A stretch of 64,000 bases of DNA from Mesodorylaimus sp. YZB2_4 (lineage: Eukaryota > Nematoda > Enoplea > Dorylaimida > Dorylaimidae). The notes under the pieces are model-generated. The model was not told where the DNA came from, searched no databases, and saw nothing but the letters and a program-made list of their open reading frames with translations. Below are positions 20,074 to 29,600 of this stretch, in pieces. The stretch is from contig JASANH010000138.1 of the NCBI GenBank assembly GCA_030248295.1, positions 1 to 64,000 on the forward strand, read 5' to 3'. Every line of letters starts with the position of its first letter. Positions within the stretch are counted from its first letter, which is position 1. The translations under genes and the position numbers were made by a program.

Positions 20074-23000
20074 TCAAATCAAACGAATGGCATAAGAACG
20101 TCCATTCGGATTCATAATCGGTGTCACGACTGGTTCAGCCACCTGCCACTCGTACCACACTTGGCGTTCATTAGCGCAACGCCAAAACCGTACCCGAATT
20201 TGTTGACCCTTCTTGACGAAAACCGGATCCTAAATATCGAGAGCAGAATTTGTAACAGCACTCTCACACAGACAAGGCCAAAGCAGTTGTCCAAAAATGG
20301 TCTAATCAACCGCGCGAGATATCCGTTCCTAGAGCAGCAGGTCCTAGCACTACGCTATCCCAGGTTCACTACGGGGTTCATACCGGGAGCTGCAAATAAT
20401 TTTCCCCGATTCTTTCCAGGCAAAAATTTAGTTTTTCTTCTGCTTATTTTTGAATGACCCCAGCACGACTGAATCAATCTCAATTGATTTCCTGATTTCC
20501 AGCACGATCAAGAAATAAACAGAAAAGGCGCCCGATGAAAAAATTTGGGGCCTCAAAAAGCAGTCTCTCTCAGTTTACTCTGATTTTGGCTCTAAAATTC
20601 CGATTTTCCCAAGTTTTCCAGGCACTTTTAGGACCCCTGGCTTTCAGGTTTTCCAACCTTGTATAAACCTTTCAATGTGCCAAAAAGCTCATCAGTCCGC
20701 TGAAATTACCAGATAAATTAATGATTTGCGAAAGCCACACCACTCCCAGATATGGAAAGCTTACCCTAAACTGTTGAACATTTTCATTTGCGGCCATCTT
20801 ACCTTTAGTGAGAACATAATCGGGAACCAACTGCATAGGCGAGAAGTCTCGTATCTGGGAACAGTGCTAAGCGAAATATTACCGAATAACGTAGCGTAAA
20901 AGTATCCAACCAAGCCCATCATTTCGGAGGATTCGCGGGCAATAAAAATCAATTCCTTATAACGTTCATTCGATGTAAGTTTCCAATTTGGATGATCAAA
21001 CCGAAACAATTCTTGCGCCGGAGCGATCTCGAATTGATTAAATACGCGCACTACGTATGGACTTTCGAAGGCTACCTAAAAGCCTGGCACATCTTCGAAA
21101 AAGAAAATACAAAAAACTACAAATTCCTAAAACCAAATTCTCATTCCCACATTCCCAATTCACCCATTGGTCTCTATAATCATGGAGTGCAATACCTACC
21201 ATTGGATTATGCTCTCGCTCGGACGCGCTGCGAACCTCGTTCAACAACTTCGGCGAATGAACCGGTCCAATAAAAGAGCGATAAGAAGACGGAATACTGA
21301 CGCAATCCGCTAAAATTACGAATATATAAAATAAACTCCTTCAAGCAGCAGTCAGTGTGTCCTTACGTTTCATCAAATGCAAAGCTCCATCCAAACATTC
21401 AGGCGACAATTCATTATCTCCAAACGATCCCAACAGTTCGCTAATTACCACATCAGCTTTATCTTTTGGTTTGAAATTGCGCATATCCGAGAACACCACT
21501 TCTACTTCGTTGTTCCATTCCTCGACTTGTTTCGCCCTGAGCCTAAAAAAGAGCCAGGCTTTGCATTATCCCCCATCGTTAGCCCGCTGTCCAGACGCCG
21601 TCTCTGAACTCATTACTTACGTCACAAGAGCGCAAGGATTTTTCTCCACCGCATACAATTTGAAATTGGTTTTGTGCTTCTTCAGTACCTCATAAGCTGC
21701 CGTCACCAGCGGACCACGCCCGGCTCCCAAAACCATAACCACCCTGCAATGAGGTTAATTACAGTAGAACCTGAACCAAACAAATCAATGGCTGAAAGAA
21801 CCGAAGCTTGTCCAAGGAAGAACTCAACAGCCTCACAAAACAAATTCAAAACCATCCGTACAATTCTTTGACATGTCCATTTCGCCAATAGTGGCTGATA
21901 ACCTCTGATTCGAAAGCGCACTTGTATCGTGCATATTTGCATAAATCCCTTTCAAAGCAAGCATACGTCGACGAGGGTAAAGTTTGAATCAGCGGATGCA
22001 TCGGATCGTACAGTTGGTCTTCATATCCAGACGCTGTCCGTAGCAAGTAAGGCAACTTTCCGCGCGTCTGGTATTAAAAAAGACAAAAACCGATAAAAGA
22101 ACCTTCACCAGCACCTATCCGGGCGTCAGGCTACTTTGCTCCCCTACGGACAAGCTTGGTTATCCCCCACCACCAGCGCTGCGTTAGCTAGCTTACAAAG
22201 TTTGATTTGGCGACCAGTTTTCAAGTTTCAATGAAACGGCCTCTTCGAAGGCACGGCGATATTCTTCATACTTAATCGGGTCTCGTTCAAATGTTTCGTA
22301 AACCTCGGATTCTAAATGATCGCCTAGCGGTTGCAATGGTAGCTGTAGGAAATCTTCGTAGCCTGACACCCATTCGGCCAATTGATCGCCACTTTGACTG
22401 TTCTACGCATCAAGTGTTAATATTAGAATTGAGCGCTGCAGTCCCGCCCGTTGCTCGACACTCCTACATTATTTATGCTCAGCTATAAGCGAAGGCCCAA
22501 CGTCCACTCACCTTCCACAAATTATTCATATAGGCGTAATACAGGCACGTCTGGTCCACAGGTTCCACTTCGTCGCTGCCACGACGCTGCTGCGATCGAC
22601 GAAAATGCAAAACGTCTCCTTCCAGTAAGAATTGAACGTTCATCAGAAAGAATTCCTTGGCCACACTTTGGTGCACCTTCGACAAAACAGGAAATCCAGA
22701 CTTGTTTGTCAGGAACGTATGAGTATCCAATTTTATAGCCGCCAACGGTTCGCCTTTCCAACGAGCAATTTCGCTTTGCGACTCGGGCAAATCGGCGGTC
22801 AATTCCAAGAGCAGCAAAATTCTGCGATGACTATTGCAAGCGCGACGGAATTCGTAAAACCAATGCCACGTGTCTTTCGTTTGATTCTGATTATCGCCCT
22901 GAGACTCCTTACCAAAATTAGACTCGGCAGTTGTATCCGCGTTATTGGAAGAAGCTTGCGCACTAGCCGAAGCTGAGCTGACATGGCCGTCCCCGTTGTG

Positions 23001-25987
23001 CAATTCCATCGAAGTTGGAGCAGTTATAGGCACTTCTATCCATAACTAAAACGGAGACCAATTAAGACAGCCACCAGGTCAGTAGCGTTAGGTCTATCCT
23101 TCCTAGACTATGCGCGTCATCACCATGTCACGTGGGCAAGATCTCGTGCCGTTGCATGCGTCCTCCATCTCAACTTTACCCTGTCAATTGAAATAACTCA
23201 GACACCGTGAACAGCAACAAAACAATCTTGCGCGGCGCACCTCCTCATTGTGTCTGTCCGAATACATATCCCAATACCACGCATTACCTCATTCAAAGCG
23301 TATGTGCATAACACAACAAATAATAATAGCACGCCCCATTTCCTCGTTCCATTCCAACGGTCGACGACCAGACTGGCCATGGACAGAACCCTTCTTTGAT
23401 GAACTATGGAGTCTCATTTCATCAATTTTCCCCTGGCGCGAATAAGGCGACAATGAACTTGTTACATTACTCCCGGCCGCAGCACTATGCTTCCTCCTAC
23501 CGTCACCTGACCAGCAGCAACAAGGTGCAGCATTCTACCCACCAACGCCACTGGTCGACAAAGAATTTATTGCCATAACTATTGTGAACAAGAATGCTAA
23601 ACGAAAAACCTGGACAAACTGGCGACCATTTCTTTGATAGCCCTGGCCGTTCCGACATGCTCCAATTCTTTTTCCATTCCTCGATGTTTCCCTAGCCGAC
23701 AAAAAGTAGACTCGCTGTCGATATAGTCCAAGACAGCGTCGGATAGGATAACCTGGTCTTCCGCTATTTTGCCTCCTTCTGGGTCGCCTTATTCAGCATT
23801 TCATAAACGCATCAAAAAAGATCTTCAAGAGTGGAGTTCTACTTTTGGCCTCTTTCACATAGGAAGCGTTTATGGTTGACCGGAAAATAACAATGATTCT
23901 TTCACGGTCCACCAGCCGTAAAACCATTTGTCACTAATCGACATATGGCGTCACCATTGCCGCGGACAGACCATTGGTCAACTACCTCGAGCCAAGGATA
24001 TACTCGTACGAGGCACATTCTATTTACAGATGGCGCTAGACCCTATTTTAACAAGCCGTGTTTATCAAGGCAACAAATGACAGACTCTGTCAACCCACCA
24101 GAGTGCCCCAAAACGAACCCGCTCGATAGCGTTCATTGACCAATTGCTCTTTCCAACGGATAGCCGCTGCGTATTATATCCCAGAGATCACCGGCACCGA
24201 AACATTATTTCCTGCACGAACGATGCAGAAATTTGTCATTACTGGCGCGGGGAAATGCCCACCAAAACTAAAACACAAACTGCGACATGGAATTCGCAAA
24301 GATGGCGGATCTCACGTTCTGAATATTGCTGTTGCTAAACAATCTCTACGACGGCTATCGATTGAGGAAAAAACAAAGAAATCAGATCCTACTTCCAGCA
24401 CCGCACTGCAAGAACCGTGCCCTTCCTCTTCGGGTATCAACGGAAACAATGCAAAGAGTCCCGACGGGATTATCATTCCAAAAACGACGAATCATCAACA
24501 TGGTAGCGGCACATCGGGAGAAAAAGTGGTCAAAGCGATGTTCTTCGATAGCGAAGAATACAAAGCCACAAAACGCGCCCTGGACTACGATGAAGACGCG
24601 ATCGCATCGGAGTTGCGTCGAAGTTATAACTGTGATCAAAGAAAAAGACCACTTTCTTCAATTTCATTGGGTCAATCCGAAATCCGTACAATCGACCCGA
24701 ATAATCACATAAATAAGAGACTGGAACGAGATTATACTGACACAGCTGATTATTATGAAGCACCCCCCGACGACTGGTCAGACAACCGCAAGGAGACACA
24801 CGCTAAAGATGGCCAGTTACCCACTCGAATACCAGTCGAACAGCAGCCAACTGAAACGTTGATTGGACGTCGGCATAAAAGAGTCAGTACAAACGGGACG
24901 ATAAGGAGATTATCAATCGATTCGATTCAGCAATTTTGCCTAATCAAAACCCGACCATCGAAATCAGCGAGGGTTCACCGACGAAGACACTCATTCGTGA
25001 ATACAGGCGAAAATCGAGAGCCGAAAAGGAGATATAAGAAGACCAAATTTGTTGATCCGCCTAATGGTTTCTTAGATCAACCGAAGGATTTGGCAACACA
25101 AAACGGTAAGTTCCATGAGGTCCGATTTGAAGGGTACAAACGATCGAGTTTGCCAGTTTATGACAGCAGACACAATAAATTGGCAATGACCGAACCAATT
25201 GTCTTCGACTATGATGATCAGTTGACTAGAGACTTTGCATGGCATAGGTACCTATGCATCGGTGTCTTCTTTGCATTTATTATGTGGGCTGCCATATTCT
25301 TTCCTACTATATATATCCTTCGCCAGGGCACTACAGAATGAATAAAGTAACCTTACTTACAGCGTAAGTGGAACTTTGACCAGCCACCAAGACTTGTTGG
25401 ACTATGCGGGCTAGATTTGGATTTTCCGCCCTGCGTAGTCGAATCACGACAGCAGGAACAGACAAATAACCGAAATACGACAATTCTTCTTTCAAAGCCT
25501 GCAAAAAACGCGTAGTGATAGGAGTAGGACTAGAATGGTTCGATCTACCGCATGTACCTTTTCCGATAAACGGCGAATATATGGATCGTCAGAATCCGGA
25601 TCGATCCATGGAGACGGTCTACCAACAACCAGCCGGGACCAATCGTGGCTGCTAAGAGAAATGTCCGCGATGACAAGAGGAGGCAAACATTGATCGACGA
25701 TTGCATTCGGTAGCAAATCATTATATTCATTGCCGCTCAATTCGCGCATTTTTTCCGTTACCTCTTTCAGATCGAGACAACATCGTGGATGCGATATATT
25801 GATGACCACAAAGTCGTAACTGGAACAAGACAGTTTTTCTAGCTATTTAGAAATGGAACAGAGTAGGACTATGTATGACTTAAATATCTTACCCTTCGTT
25901 CCCTTTGTCCGTAATCATCTGTTTCATACTGTTTACGTTACAGACATCGACGAATCGACCGGATGATAAATTTTCTCGACCTGGCAT
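20074..25987 (-). CDS. prmt-5: Protein arginine methyltransferase 5, with duplicated exon
   Basis: A type II arginine methyltransferase: it transfers methyl groups from S-adenosylmethionine to arginine, giving symmetric dimethylarginine on histones and Sm proteins. Ten exons (25893-25987, 25558-25819, 25361-25498, 22512-23045, 22197-22402, 21621-21743, 21367-21542, 21200-21309, 20803-21075, 20074-20229) give 690 aa in one frame; human PRMT5 is 637. The N-terminal TIM-barrel has [15 protein letters not shown] and [16 protein letters not shown]. The catalytic part has motif [25 protein letters not shown] and the double-E loop [15 protein letters not shown]. The C-terminal barrel ends GRSYAIRLI. 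All key catalytic residues look intact. A second version of exon 5 (21862-22067) lies in the following intron. Intron 3 (2.3 kb) contains an opposite-strand gene. Confidence 0.95.
21862..22067 (-). other. PRMT5 exon 5b (alternative, duplicated version)
   Basis: Also exactly 206 nt, phase 0 in and phase 2 out, with an acceptor 'cttttttaataccag' and a donor 'gtacgg'. It aligns to exon 5a with no gaps (about 23 of 68 residues identical): [20 protein letters not shown], then [11 protein letters not shown]. The Tyr, Phe, Lys and Tyr equivalent to human 324, 327, 333 and 334 are kept, while PLQPL, DPIKY and the following helix change. Using both exons together would shift the frame (206 is not a multiple of 3), so they can only be used alternatively. 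Expression cannot be seen from sequence. Confidence 0.8.
22197..22402 (-). other. PRMT5 exon 5a (conserved version)
   Basis: A 206-nt exon, phase 0 in and phase 2 out, after a 'tgatgcgtag' acceptor and before 'gtaagc'. It encodes [20 protein letters not shown], then [11 protein letters not shown], close to human PRMT5. Residues equivalent to human Tyr324, Phe327, Lys333 and Tyr334 (cofactor/active site) are present. This is the default exon by conservation. Confidence 0.9.
24136..25341 (+). CDS. Unknown tail-anchored basic protein nested in a PRMT5 intron
   Basis: An uninterrupted ORF of 401 codons on the strand opposite PRMT5, wholly inside its intron 3. The stop (25341) lies 20 bp from PRMT5 exon 3. 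Initiation may be at 24136 or, more plausibly, at the inner Met at 24223 ([20 protein letters not shown]). The body is hydrophilic with basic clusters ([41 protein letters not shown]) that resemble kinase target sites (R-R-x-S). A hydrophobic segment near the C-terminus ([20 protein letters not shown]) is followed by only about 12 residues, which predicts a tail-anchored cytosol-facing protein. I recognise no family. The long open frame and clean membrane anchor make chance unlikely. Confidence 0.7.
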   Translation: MTNCSFQRIAAAYYIPEITGTETLFPARTMQKFVITGAGKCPPKLKHKLRHGIRKDGGSHVLNIAVAKQSLRRLSIEEKTKKSDPTSSTALQEPCPSSSGINGNNAKSPDGIIIPKTTNHQHGSGTSGEKVVKAMFFDSEEYKATKRALDYDEDAIASELRRSYNCDQRKRPLSSISLGQSEIRTIDPNNHINKRLERDYTDTADYYEAPPDDWSDNRKETHAKDGQLPTRIPVEQQPTETLIGRRHKRVSTNGTIRRLSIDSIQQFCLIKTRPSKSARVHRRRHSFVNTGENREPKRRYKKTKFVDPPNGFLDQPKDLATQNGKFHEVRFEGYKRSSLPVYDSRHNKLAMTEPIVFDYDDQLTRDFAWHRYLCIGVFFAFIMWAAIFFPTIYILRQGTTE

Positions 25988-26677
25988 CTTCAAAACTTTA
26001 AGATTAAACAGTAACTAGATGGTTACGATTCGAATACACTTCCAAACATGCAGCTTTTTCAAAAGAAATCAAATTAAAACACGGGGCGCAGCGCTACCGC
26101 AAGACACCGCGCACACTTTGGTCTGCAGGTTCCTGAAGAGAAAAAGGTCTTGCCTCAAACTGCCGGGAATTTAAATTACAGTTCAAAAACCCTGTCGACA
26201 TAGCCCCTCCAACATAGCAAATTAAGGGTCCAGTTTATATGAGGAGCTGATAAATTGCGTCCGATATTCGGATGAGGGATGGTGATCTCGGAGTCACGAG
26301 GTGCAAAAACGTTTGTGTGGGATCCGAGTTAGCACATCAACTCTGATGCTGGCCTTCTTGGTATAGGACGGTCACACTTTCATCACATTTGTCAGTCTCC
26401 GTCCATCAGCAGATATCTGCCCTTAACTGATCCATCTTTCGTCCCGGATGCAGTCAGAGGATTGGTTTAATACTGCGTACAGACTGGACTCTGCTCCTCA
26501 TTCACAAAACGGAATGCTATCATCAATCAGTTCTGTCTCATTTTCCACTAAACTTTGCTCTATCATGCCCGAGGCGATATACAGTACAGTACAAAGAAGA
26601 TTTATGTGACCACCTAAACAGTGCTAGGCACGCCTCAGTGCGACATCGTCAGCGGACGAAGGATAAACGTTTTTGAG
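25988..26677. promoter_or_regulatory. Divergent intergenic region between PRMT5 and the sugar transporter
   Basis: This 690-bp space lies between two start codons facing away from each other, so it must hold both promoters. I see no clear TATA box or known motif. No coding signal is present. Confidence 0.45.
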
Positions 26678-29600
26678 ATGACAAAAGTCAGGCGACCTGA
26701 TCAACGTCAGTCATGGACCTTACCCCTGGCTTTTGCCTTGTGGACTACAACCTTTGGGTCATCTTTCGTGTTCGGCTACCAAGTTGGATGCATGAATGCG
26801 CCTGCTCACGTAAGATGCAACAGCTTCCCCAGATTGAGGGATCGAGACGGAAGAAAACTTGTGTTCTTTTACTGTAGTTGATCAAAACGTGGATTCGAAA
26901 TGAATCGTACCCCAGCGTACATGGCGAGCAAATAAGCGACACTTTGCTCACTGAACTGTGGTCTTGGATGGTGGCCGGATGTACCTTGGCCAGTGCCATT
27001 GGCGGACTGATGTGTGGATATTTCGCGGATAAACTCGGAAGGTAGGTGAAGCACAGACGTGTGCTCTGAGCCCCTATCTGGGGGAGTCTACTCAATTGCA
27101 GCAGGGGTACATAACGCTGTAGTCTTGGACGAGTCCTCTCTGTAGGACAAGAAACCCGGATGCGGTCTAACTTTTCCCTAATGCACGAACTAGCGGGCGT
27201 AGTTTGACTTCTTCAATTCAAATTTTGGGAAGAAAATCTGTCGAGTTCTTTTCGCCGGACTCGTGAAGTTTTTTAAATTCAGTGTTCAACGGGAACAAAC
27301 CAAGTCGACAGCTACTGAAAAGTGCTCCATACTTCGGGTCGCGACTTTAGTTTGTAACCTTATAAACCTTATTGTACCTTATGGGGGACCAGCACTCACA
27401 GCAGCGTCCCTCTGCGTCTCTCCTATGAGCACCTCCGCACGAGGGCATCCTGGACAAGATATTGTACTGGCTTCCTCGGACGATGGCGGATGGGCCGTGA
27501 ACCCAGTCGGTGTTCGACAGCCGAGACTGTCTCCTCGTTTGGCTTCCGTCTCTCCACTCGGAGCATCTCGACAGTACCGGGTGAGTCACCCACGGCCTGG
27601 CGTGCAAGATAAGCGAGGGTTTATGGTTCGCAAACCGACCTCAGTAACCGGGGATCGAACCCGGGACGAGTCCAGCCACTCGACCACCGCGGTCGCTTTA
27701 GGACAACTAATTGATAGCGTGTCGTCAGAACGTATAGTATCACAAGCTCAGACGCGGCATTATGTAGCAGACTGTGAGAGCTTTGATGGCGAGTGTACCA
27801 GCATCCCTAGCGGTGGGGAGTAATCGATACGCTCCCCACCGCTAGGGATGCTGGTTACATGAGTTTCTTTGAAAAGGATCTTTTGCTCGCGAACAGTGGC
27901 GTGGTTCATGGAGGCGCATGGAGATACGACGTCCTAACATGCCAGTAAGTCCTTACACTCCGACCCCAGTGACATCCCACTATGATACTCCTGACCGACT
28001 CAATGGAAAATCTGGTCTGTCTTTCCTTACTGCGTCCCTTACAATTGATATTGAATTTAAAATGATATGGATTATTTTAGATGAGTTATAGTTTTATCGC
28101 TTTTCTCCACTGAAAAACTCCTGATTGACATGTCACTGTGTCAACGAGACTCCGACCTTATTGGCACCCCTCACACAATACAAGAGACAGTTTTCATGCA
28201 ACTACGAAAAGCAAAGTTCCGCTGGTTCGTCGGCTCAACTAGACGCGCATGCGAGTTCATTCGAAATTTCTTTAAAAGTGTAACACGCGCCCACCACCTA
28301 CGTCCTGCCTGGTGTCGCCTCCTGAGTCTAGACGCCTGACTCTCGTCGGACGAATCCTTGGGGCGCGTAGGTGGTGCCGCGGGGAGCTTACGCACTCCGT
28401 ATAAATGAACTCAGAGCTTCAGTGTCCGACCTCTAGTAGTCTAAGACTGGTGAAACATCAACCCGAGAGGTTGACAACGTTCCACTTGTGCCAATCGATG
28501 GGCACACTGCCGGCTCCAGTCACATGTTACAAAAGCATGCTGATGCAAGTTCTCACAAGTACTCACTGAACAAGTATAGTACCATACAACTGTAAATGAG
28601 TCCAACTTTTTATGCAACATTCTTGATTTCCAACCCCTGGCGTCGTTCGCTTTTCGTGTGCATCCTATTCTCAAAGCCATATTCTGGTTGTATGTCGATC
28701 AGGACTCAAGGCTTGTTGAAGTTTTACGGGATCCCCACACAGTTAACATCGAGGTCAAGCACGAGCAAGCATCAGGCACATCCATGGGACTTATCACGAT
28801 CGAGGTCACTCGTTGTACTCGAGGGCCATGTTCTTGCGGCGGACGATGGAGTCCCCTGTGAACCACTCGCGGTTGTACTTCTTGGGAGCGCTGGCCGAGG
28901 CGTCGGTCCGTTCGATGGTCATGCGATCGACGACGTGTCGACACCGGGAAGTTCTCGACATCCTGTAGTTCTCTTTTCACTGAATGACTGCTCTGTCCTG
29001 ACTTTTACGCAACGGGCCGGTGGCTCAACGTGTGTTTCGTTATCCTGTACGCAATATAGTGAAACACATCTGTATCCTTTGCTACTGGCACCAATAGGGT
29101 TTCCTCTGTTGAATAATGGAACGGAACCTGGGCCTGCCCACCATACATACGTACTTGAAGATCATGCTTGTTTTAGGAAACGAGCGATGCTGGTCAATGA
29201 TGTCGTCTCGATCATTGGTGCCACTCTGATGGGCATCAGCAGAGTAACCAATCTGTATTATTTGCTCTTGATCGGTCGCTTGATTATTGGTGTCAGTTGT
29301 GGTAAGGAACCTAAGCCTGACATGCGTTGCTCCTCTCTTCTTCATCCTCTCTTGTATACCTCTCTTTCACGTCAGGAATCACGAGCGGAGTAGCCCCTAT
29401 CTACTTGACTGAAATCGCCCCCTTGCGCCTTCGAGGCATGCTGGGAAATGCCAACACATTGGCTTTTATCGCAGGCATCTTCATTTCCCAAGTTCTAGCC
29501 ATGCCACAGATATTTGGAACAGAGGAATATTGGCCACTGGTATTAGGTATGACGCGAGGGTTCATAATATATAGGCATGGTCAGAGGAGTCTTTATGCTA

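Follow-up and report, generated by a model that had tools for sequence, protein, structure and literature searches.

Several systems are known in which one of two similar exons is chosen during splicing. In coq-2 of C. elegans and helminths, exons 6a and 6e, of 134 nt each, are mutually exclusive, as described in the cited part of PMC7434440. In insects, loop-out and competing RNA structures are established in Dscam, srp, 14-3-3, Mhc and MRP, according to the sections of PMC6071210 used here. In the case of the type II arginine methyltransferase PRMT5, cryo-EM indicated that the loop 292–329 is ordered on cofactor binding, and the loop consists of the tunnel (295–313), the lid (314–319) and a short helix (320–329). 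The helix stabilises the nucleoside via Tyr324, and Phe327 faces Trp579 (both from the passages cited of PMC9530242). The carboxy end of SAM is normally contacted by Lys333 (PMC11056935, part cited), and inhibitors in the arginine pocket contact Tyr304, Leu312, Val326 and Phe327 (PMC12107103, part cited). In the portion of the open-licence literature that was searched, no report of a PRMT5 with an alternative lid exon was found. The main text of PMC5740500 does not contain 'PRMT', and in PMC1949830 human PRMT5 is among the genes listed, but the term 'mutually exclusive' is absent.

Here we describe a PRMT5 gene of the nematode Mesodorylaimus sp. YZB2_4 with two versions (5a and 5b) of the exon that encodes this loop, and a second PRMT5 gene with the same arrangement. 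From the sequences, we consider it probable that the two exons are an ancient mutually exclusive pair kept by both genes, that the choice is controlled by a loop-out stem in the introns, and that the lid of PRMT5 is swapped in this way.

The exon pair in two PRMT5 genes

The window analysed is the stretch of 64,000 nt at the start of contig JASANH010000138.1 (C6), and the whole assembly (145 Mb, 1067 contigs) was searched. The model of the PRMT5 gene in the window was put together manually, guided by open frames, splice signals and homology. It is a chain of ten exons on the minus strand (Table 1) with GT/AG borders at every intron, and 690 aa are encoded with 5a or with 5b. The Pfam scan detected PF17285, PF05185 and PF17286 in this order, all above the cut-off, in both isoforms; the PF05185 score is 213 bits with 5a versus 190 bits with 5b. 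With 5b, residues 79–688 of the query match human PRMT5 (E 5.7e-145).

Table 1. Features of the PRMT5 gene in the window, and exons 5a, 5b and 6 of the second gene on contig C107.
Feature	Position	Strand	Basis or remark
Exon 1, includes start codon	25893..25987	-	gene model
Exon 2, TIM barrel	25558..25819	-	gene model and domain scan
Exon 3, TIM barrel	25361..25498	-	gene model and domain scan
Exon 4, constitutive, upstream partner for 5a/5b	22512..23045	-	gene model and domain scan
Exon 5a, canonical form of the lid/tunnel exon, equivalent to residues 290–358 of human PRMT5	22197..22402	-	model, alignment, PF05185 E 6.6e-13
Stem 5' arm, AACCAAGCTTGTCCG	22147..22161	-	core 39 nt after 5a donor; same 10-mer at 40 nt in C107
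Exon 5b, alternative lid/tunnel exon, length and phases as 5a	21862..22067	-	model, alignment, PF05185 E 3.4e-6, C107 counterpart
Stem 3' arm, TGGACAAGCTT plus CGGTT	21799..21814	-	core ends 60 nt before exon 6; same 10-mer at 61 nt in C107
Exon 6, GAGRG cofactor motif, constitutive, downstream partner	21621..21743	-	gene model and domain scan
Exon 7, double-Glu catalytic loop	21367..21542	-	gene model, human match, domain scan
Exon 8	21200..21309	-	gene model and domain scan
Exon 9, SWFP = human Trp579	20803..21075	-	gene model, human match
Exon 10, includes stop codon	20074..20229	-	gene model and domain scan
C107 exon 5a	183057-182855		203 nt
C107 exon 5b	182691-182474		218 nt; open, AG/GT borders, phase 0-to-2; between 5a and exon 6
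C107 exon 6	182123-181992		

The preliminary description had proposed that an active-site exon of PRMT5 exists in two versions that are mutually exclusive, and the exon pair that it observed is confirmed. At the positions in Table 1, exons 5a and 5b have 206 nt each, AG/GT borders and phase 0 to 2. According to the gene model, either exon joins exons 4 and 6 in frame to give the 690 aa, and the two together break the frame, with a stop after 437 aa; if both are skipped, the stop comes after 360 aa. The two exons are about one third identical without gaps (24/68), and 26/67 residues are identical if one gap is allowed. The alignment score is 89.5 (z 11.6, 2000 residue shuffles), and PF05185 picks up 5b by itself in the genome search. 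Both have the counterparts of human Tyr324, Phe327, Lys333 and Tyr334 (4gqb-chain numbering).

PRMT5 family matches were detected at seven places in the genome, four on C6 and three on contig C107. The C107 gene is in frame from exon 2 through the stop; its exon 1 was looked for and not located. The double-Glu loop (Glu435 and Glu444) is present in exon 7 of both genes. When the genome was searched with the protein sequence of 5b and a limit of E 10, three matches were obtained (both C6 exons and C107-5a). C107-5b was missed, and was found by reading the intron frames. A scan of viral contigs with exon 5b gave 13 pattern matches, and a relative was confirmed in none of them. Within the 731-nt stretch from 5a to exon 6 of C107, this exon has a score of 53 with C6-5b and of 49 with either 5a, whereas the best score in 300 dinucleotide shuffles of the stretch was 15.5; an open AG..GT candidate occurred in 77 of the shuffles. 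C107-5b is identical to C6-5b at 19/68 residues (z 7.0), to C6-5a at 20/66 (z 6.5) and to C107-5a at 21/64 (z 6.7). As these values are nearly equal, global similarity alone does not tell its nearest relative. PF05185 was matched in the domain scan of C107, which covered a 179-aa part of the 5b isoform.

The exon-5 lengths are equal in C6 (206/206) and unequal in C107 (203/218), and inclusion of both exons shifts the frame in C107 as well as in C6. Thus adjacent homologous exons with equal phases, only one of which is usable in frame at once, are found in both genes; the exon pair is real. Four of the eight exon-5 splice sites score below all the constitutive sites of both genes (15 donors and 16 acceptors): the C6 5a acceptor (-2.3) and the donors of C6 5a (2.2), C6 5b (3.3) and C107 5b (-2.7).

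Some other features of the genome were observed. On the plus strand at 24130-25338, a 403-codon stop-to-stop frame lies antisense inside PRMT5 intron 3, with a hydrophobic stretch near its end as seen by eye; the Pfam scan, over 24214-25338, gave no match. A tRNA-like stretch with GGTTCGATCCC was noticed by eye on the minus strand at about 27630-27690 of the window. ARAGORN found no tRNA gene over 26500-28500, so this stretch is at most a tRNA-derived repeat. In the 5.4-kb intron between exons 6 and 7 of the C107 gene, frames of 432 and 226 codons at 180754-178809 look transposase-like to us. The C6 exon 9–10 intron (20230-20802) and the C107 5b–6 intron (182246-182446) have two short matches (35 nt, E 0.001; 73 nt, E 0.044), and may share a weak interspersed element. 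The cuticle-collagen N-terminal domain PF01484, a family typical of nematodes, has 133 matches in the genome at E up to 0.001. The COX1 family has 15 matches, three on contig C73 (251445-254668) and 12 on other contigs. Read with table 5 (TGA = Trp), the best C73 match has an open frame of 523 codons, and there are inverted fragments close to it; the C73 copies may be either nuclear copies or a mitochondrial piece assembled in.

The lid and tunnel encoded by exon 5

Human residue numbers were counted on the alignment with the PDB 4gqb chain. Exon 5 corresponds to human residues 290–358 and two bases of the codon matching 359. Compared with the loop 292–329, the exon thus carries the entire mobile element and about 30 residues further. 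In C6-5b, the human tunnel residues 307, 309, 310, 312 and 313 are replaced by Q, Y, D, M and H, the lid residues 316–318 by I, Q and T, and the helix residues 320, 322, 325 and 326 by P, S, A and C. Tyr304, Pro314, Leu315, Leu319, Tyr324, Phe327, Lys333 and Tyr334 are retained. Both 5a exons also depart from the human sequence, at 307, 310, 316 and 326. In C107-5b, Tyr304, Leu312 and Tyr324 are replaced by Arg, Cys and Cys, and Phe327, Lys333 and Tyr334 are retained. Eight residues (Pro314, Leu315, Leu319, Phe327, Glu328, Lys333, Tyr334 and Tyr337) are identical in all four exon versions, human and Xenopus. Phe327, present in each of the four exon-5 versions, is typical for PRMT5.

The protein with 5b would keep the TIM barrel, the cofactor-binding core, the double-Glu loop and the oligomerisation domain, and would differ in the cofactor-induced lid and the substrate tunnel. 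We favour a 5b protein with an altered lid and with cofactor binding retained. It is plausible that the lid switch alters substrate handling, as the exon carries the tunnel (human 295–313) and tunnel positions change. More specifically, we suggest tentatively, from the sequences, that each of the two genes has two lids picked by a stem in the pre-mRNA, and that the 5b lid changes the target arginines or the number of methyl groups. PRMT5 acts on splicing factors, so a feedback on its own exon choice could occur.

The main competing explanation also takes 5b to be used. It holds that the resulting protein is a weak or non-catalytic PRMT5, which dampens or redirects the oligomer without a new substrate, and we regard this as a possibility to be taken seriously, though with some doubt. 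The tunnel residues are altered in 5b, Tyr324, Tyr304 and Leu312 are missing from C107-5b, and the TIM barrel and the oligomerisation domains are unaltered, all of which fit such a protein. The eight residues shared by all four versions, human and Xenopus speak against it, and Tyr304 and Tyr324 are also kept in C6-5b. As C107-5b lacks Tyr324 and Tyr304, PRMT5 with 5b could have weak activity or a regulatory role; for C107-5b, a weakened or non-catalytic form and altered substrate handling appear equally possible.

The intron stem around exon 5b

Complementary words, AAGCTTGTCC and GGACAAGCTT, bracket 5b in the introns of both genes. In C6, the predicted helix is formed by AAGCTTGTCCG/TGGACAAGCTT; that of C107, AGAAGCTTGTCCAGAA/TTCTGGACAAGCTTCT, is perfect over 16 bp. 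The core arms lie 334 nt apart in one gene and 610 nt apart in the other. The joint word in both genes is 10 nt, versus a maximum of 7 nt in 3000 joint shuffles; the stem scan was exploratory, and this and the following shuffle counts are read accordingly. The nearly equal spacing of the arms from the 5a donor and from exon 6 (Table 1) was outside the search criteria. The conservation of the arms is a comparison between two paralogs of one genome.

In the duplex scan, the introns flanking 5b gave z -3.4 (C6) and -3.2 (C107), and 0 and 1 of 200 dinucleotide shuffles were as low. Intron 4 with the 5a–5b intron gave z 0.0 and -0.5, and five control intron pairs gave z -1.1 to -0.1. One control pair has a 15-nt helix if G-U is allowed, so the helix length by itself is not telling. 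When homologous introns were compared for the longest word in common, only the two that flank 5b stood out: 12 and 2 of 500 shuffles had a word of that length. The seven other homologous introns were equalled in 186 or more of 500 shuffles, or in 39/40. In a plain search of the C6 5b–6 intron against 26.8 kb of C107 DNA, the 12-nt match has E 0.35. Single stem words are thus unremarkable, and the case for the stem rests on the joint pattern. The 10-mer is confined to the two arms in the window, and likewise in the 26.8 kb of C107, so the stem is not seen as part of a local repeat in these stretches. In the 145-Mb genome, the C6 arrangement (two 9-mers with 320-350 nt between them) has a single occurrence.

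In the predicted folds that begin at the end of 5a and reach exon 6, the stem has a pair probability of 1.00 in both genes, and the predicted C107 fold from exon 4 on also gives 1.00. When the end of exon 4 and intron 4 are added to the C6 fold, the pair probability is 0.02, and the fold with the stem enforced is 1.0 kcal/mol higher. The pairing of intron 4 with the 5' arm is -14.6 and -14.3 kcal/mol, values equalled by 156 and 48 of 500 shuffles. The pairing of intron 4 with the 5b–6 intron is at chance level (21 and 183 of 200 shuffles). The pairing expected of an intron 4 selector that competes for the stem is thus not above chance in either gene. No second pairing that selects 5b was found beyond chance in the introns scanned.

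According to the mechanism proposed here, the stem would join the intron after 5a to the intron before exon 6, and 5b would be looped out. The 5a donor and the exon 6 acceptor are separated by 453 nt in C6 and 731 nt in C107. The stem would cut this path to about 120 nt, with 5b in the loop, so the 5a form should be favoured: the 5a donor would be placed near the exon 6 acceptor, and the canonical enzyme would be produced. When the stem is unformed, splicing could place 5b between exons 4 and 6. The frame would be lost in transcripts that contain both exons or neither.

Age of the pair and comparison with known systems

Between C6 and C107, the eight constitutive exons compared are 39-78% identical, 5a is 60% identical and 5b is 28% identical. 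The identity of 5a at third codon positions is 0.39, which is near saturation. Judged by the identity of the constitutive exons and by these third positions, the two PRMT5 genes are old duplicates. We suppose that an ancestral exon 5 was duplicated in tandem, that the whole gene was duplicated later, and that both genes retained the pair as mutually exclusive exons. In the best tree, the two 5b exons form a clade with a bootstrap value of 87; alternative trees are not rejected (AU p 0.09-0.28). A PxxLR motif near the start (seen by eye), Pro320 and Ala325 are common to both 5b exons and absent in both 5a exons.

It is unlikely that 5b is a decaying relic which the stem keeps out of the message. 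Such a relic would explain that 5b diverges fast and that the C107 5b donor is poor, and the codon usage of 5b resembles that of stop-free intron. The scores of the 5b frames (0.095 and 0.088) cannot be distinguished from those of stop-free windows in introns (936 windows, which overlap; median 0.002, 90th percentile 0.269), and those of 5a are 0.311 and 0.324. Codon usage was set aside as uninformative support for 5b, though the coding frame is the best of six in all four exon-5 versions. Against a relic, the same core residues are retained in both 5b exons. Moreover, an open frame, the phase and the AG/GT borders would have to persist in each of two relics at near-saturation divergence. In an unconstrained model, the probability of this for the two copies is 0.003 if each lineage has 0.25 substitutions per site and no indels; the model is crude, the values being squares of single-copy frequencies from 4000 runs, and the true distance is not known. 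At 0.5 substitutions and above, it is about 5e-5 or less, a small value that comes from few runs.

We give little credence to an on/off switch, in which joining of 5a to 5b shifts the frame and leads to message decay, perhaps for autoregulation of PRMT5. The frame shift on double inclusion in both genes is in its favour. So are the 5a–5b introns, which have 129 and 163 nt versus 51-78 nt for several others of both genes. A decay switch, however, requires no conserved active-site residues in 5b, and the stem should promote joining of 5a to exon 6, which gives a sound message. As the 5a–5b introns exceed several others, a steric block is not expected; exclusion by a short 5a–5b intron is unlikely, both genes having shorter introns. 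Independent duplication of exon 5 in the two genes is highly improbable: such trees are not rejected (AU p 0.11) and C107-5b is about equally close to the 5a exons and to C6-5b, but the exon, the order, the intron arms and the spacing all match between the genes, and the 5b exons are joined in the best tree.

The sequence evidence thus supports the mutually exclusive active-site exons of the preliminary description, since the pair recurs in the second gene, where 5b is again flanked by the conserved arms of the intron stem. As the exchanged part is almost exactly the mobile lid and the tunnel, such a pair would be a natural experiment on the function of the mobile element. If the proposed switch is true, the pocket of many PRMT5 inhibitors comes under splicing control, and the conserved stem renders the exon switch directly testable.

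Like coq-2 (PMC7434440, part cited), PRMT5 of this species would be a nematode enzyme gene in which exclusive exons, of equal length in C6, swap part of the core around the substrate tunnel. In coq-2 the splice forms and the metabolic effect were shown experimentally, whereas the PRMT5 pair is described here from its sequence; an intron stem, as found at PRMT5 5b, is not mentioned in the cited part of that paper. The PRMT5 genes resemble the insect systems, as described in the sections used of PMC6071210, in having tandem duplicate exons and complementary intron elements that would loop exons out. They differ from them in the nematode setting and in one strong stem at the downstream exon, competing pairing being not beyond chance. 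In comparison with PRMT5 of human and Xenopus (PDB 4gqb and 4g56) and C. elegans (3ua3), the full three-domain architecture is the same, whereas here four versions of the lid are distributed across two genes.
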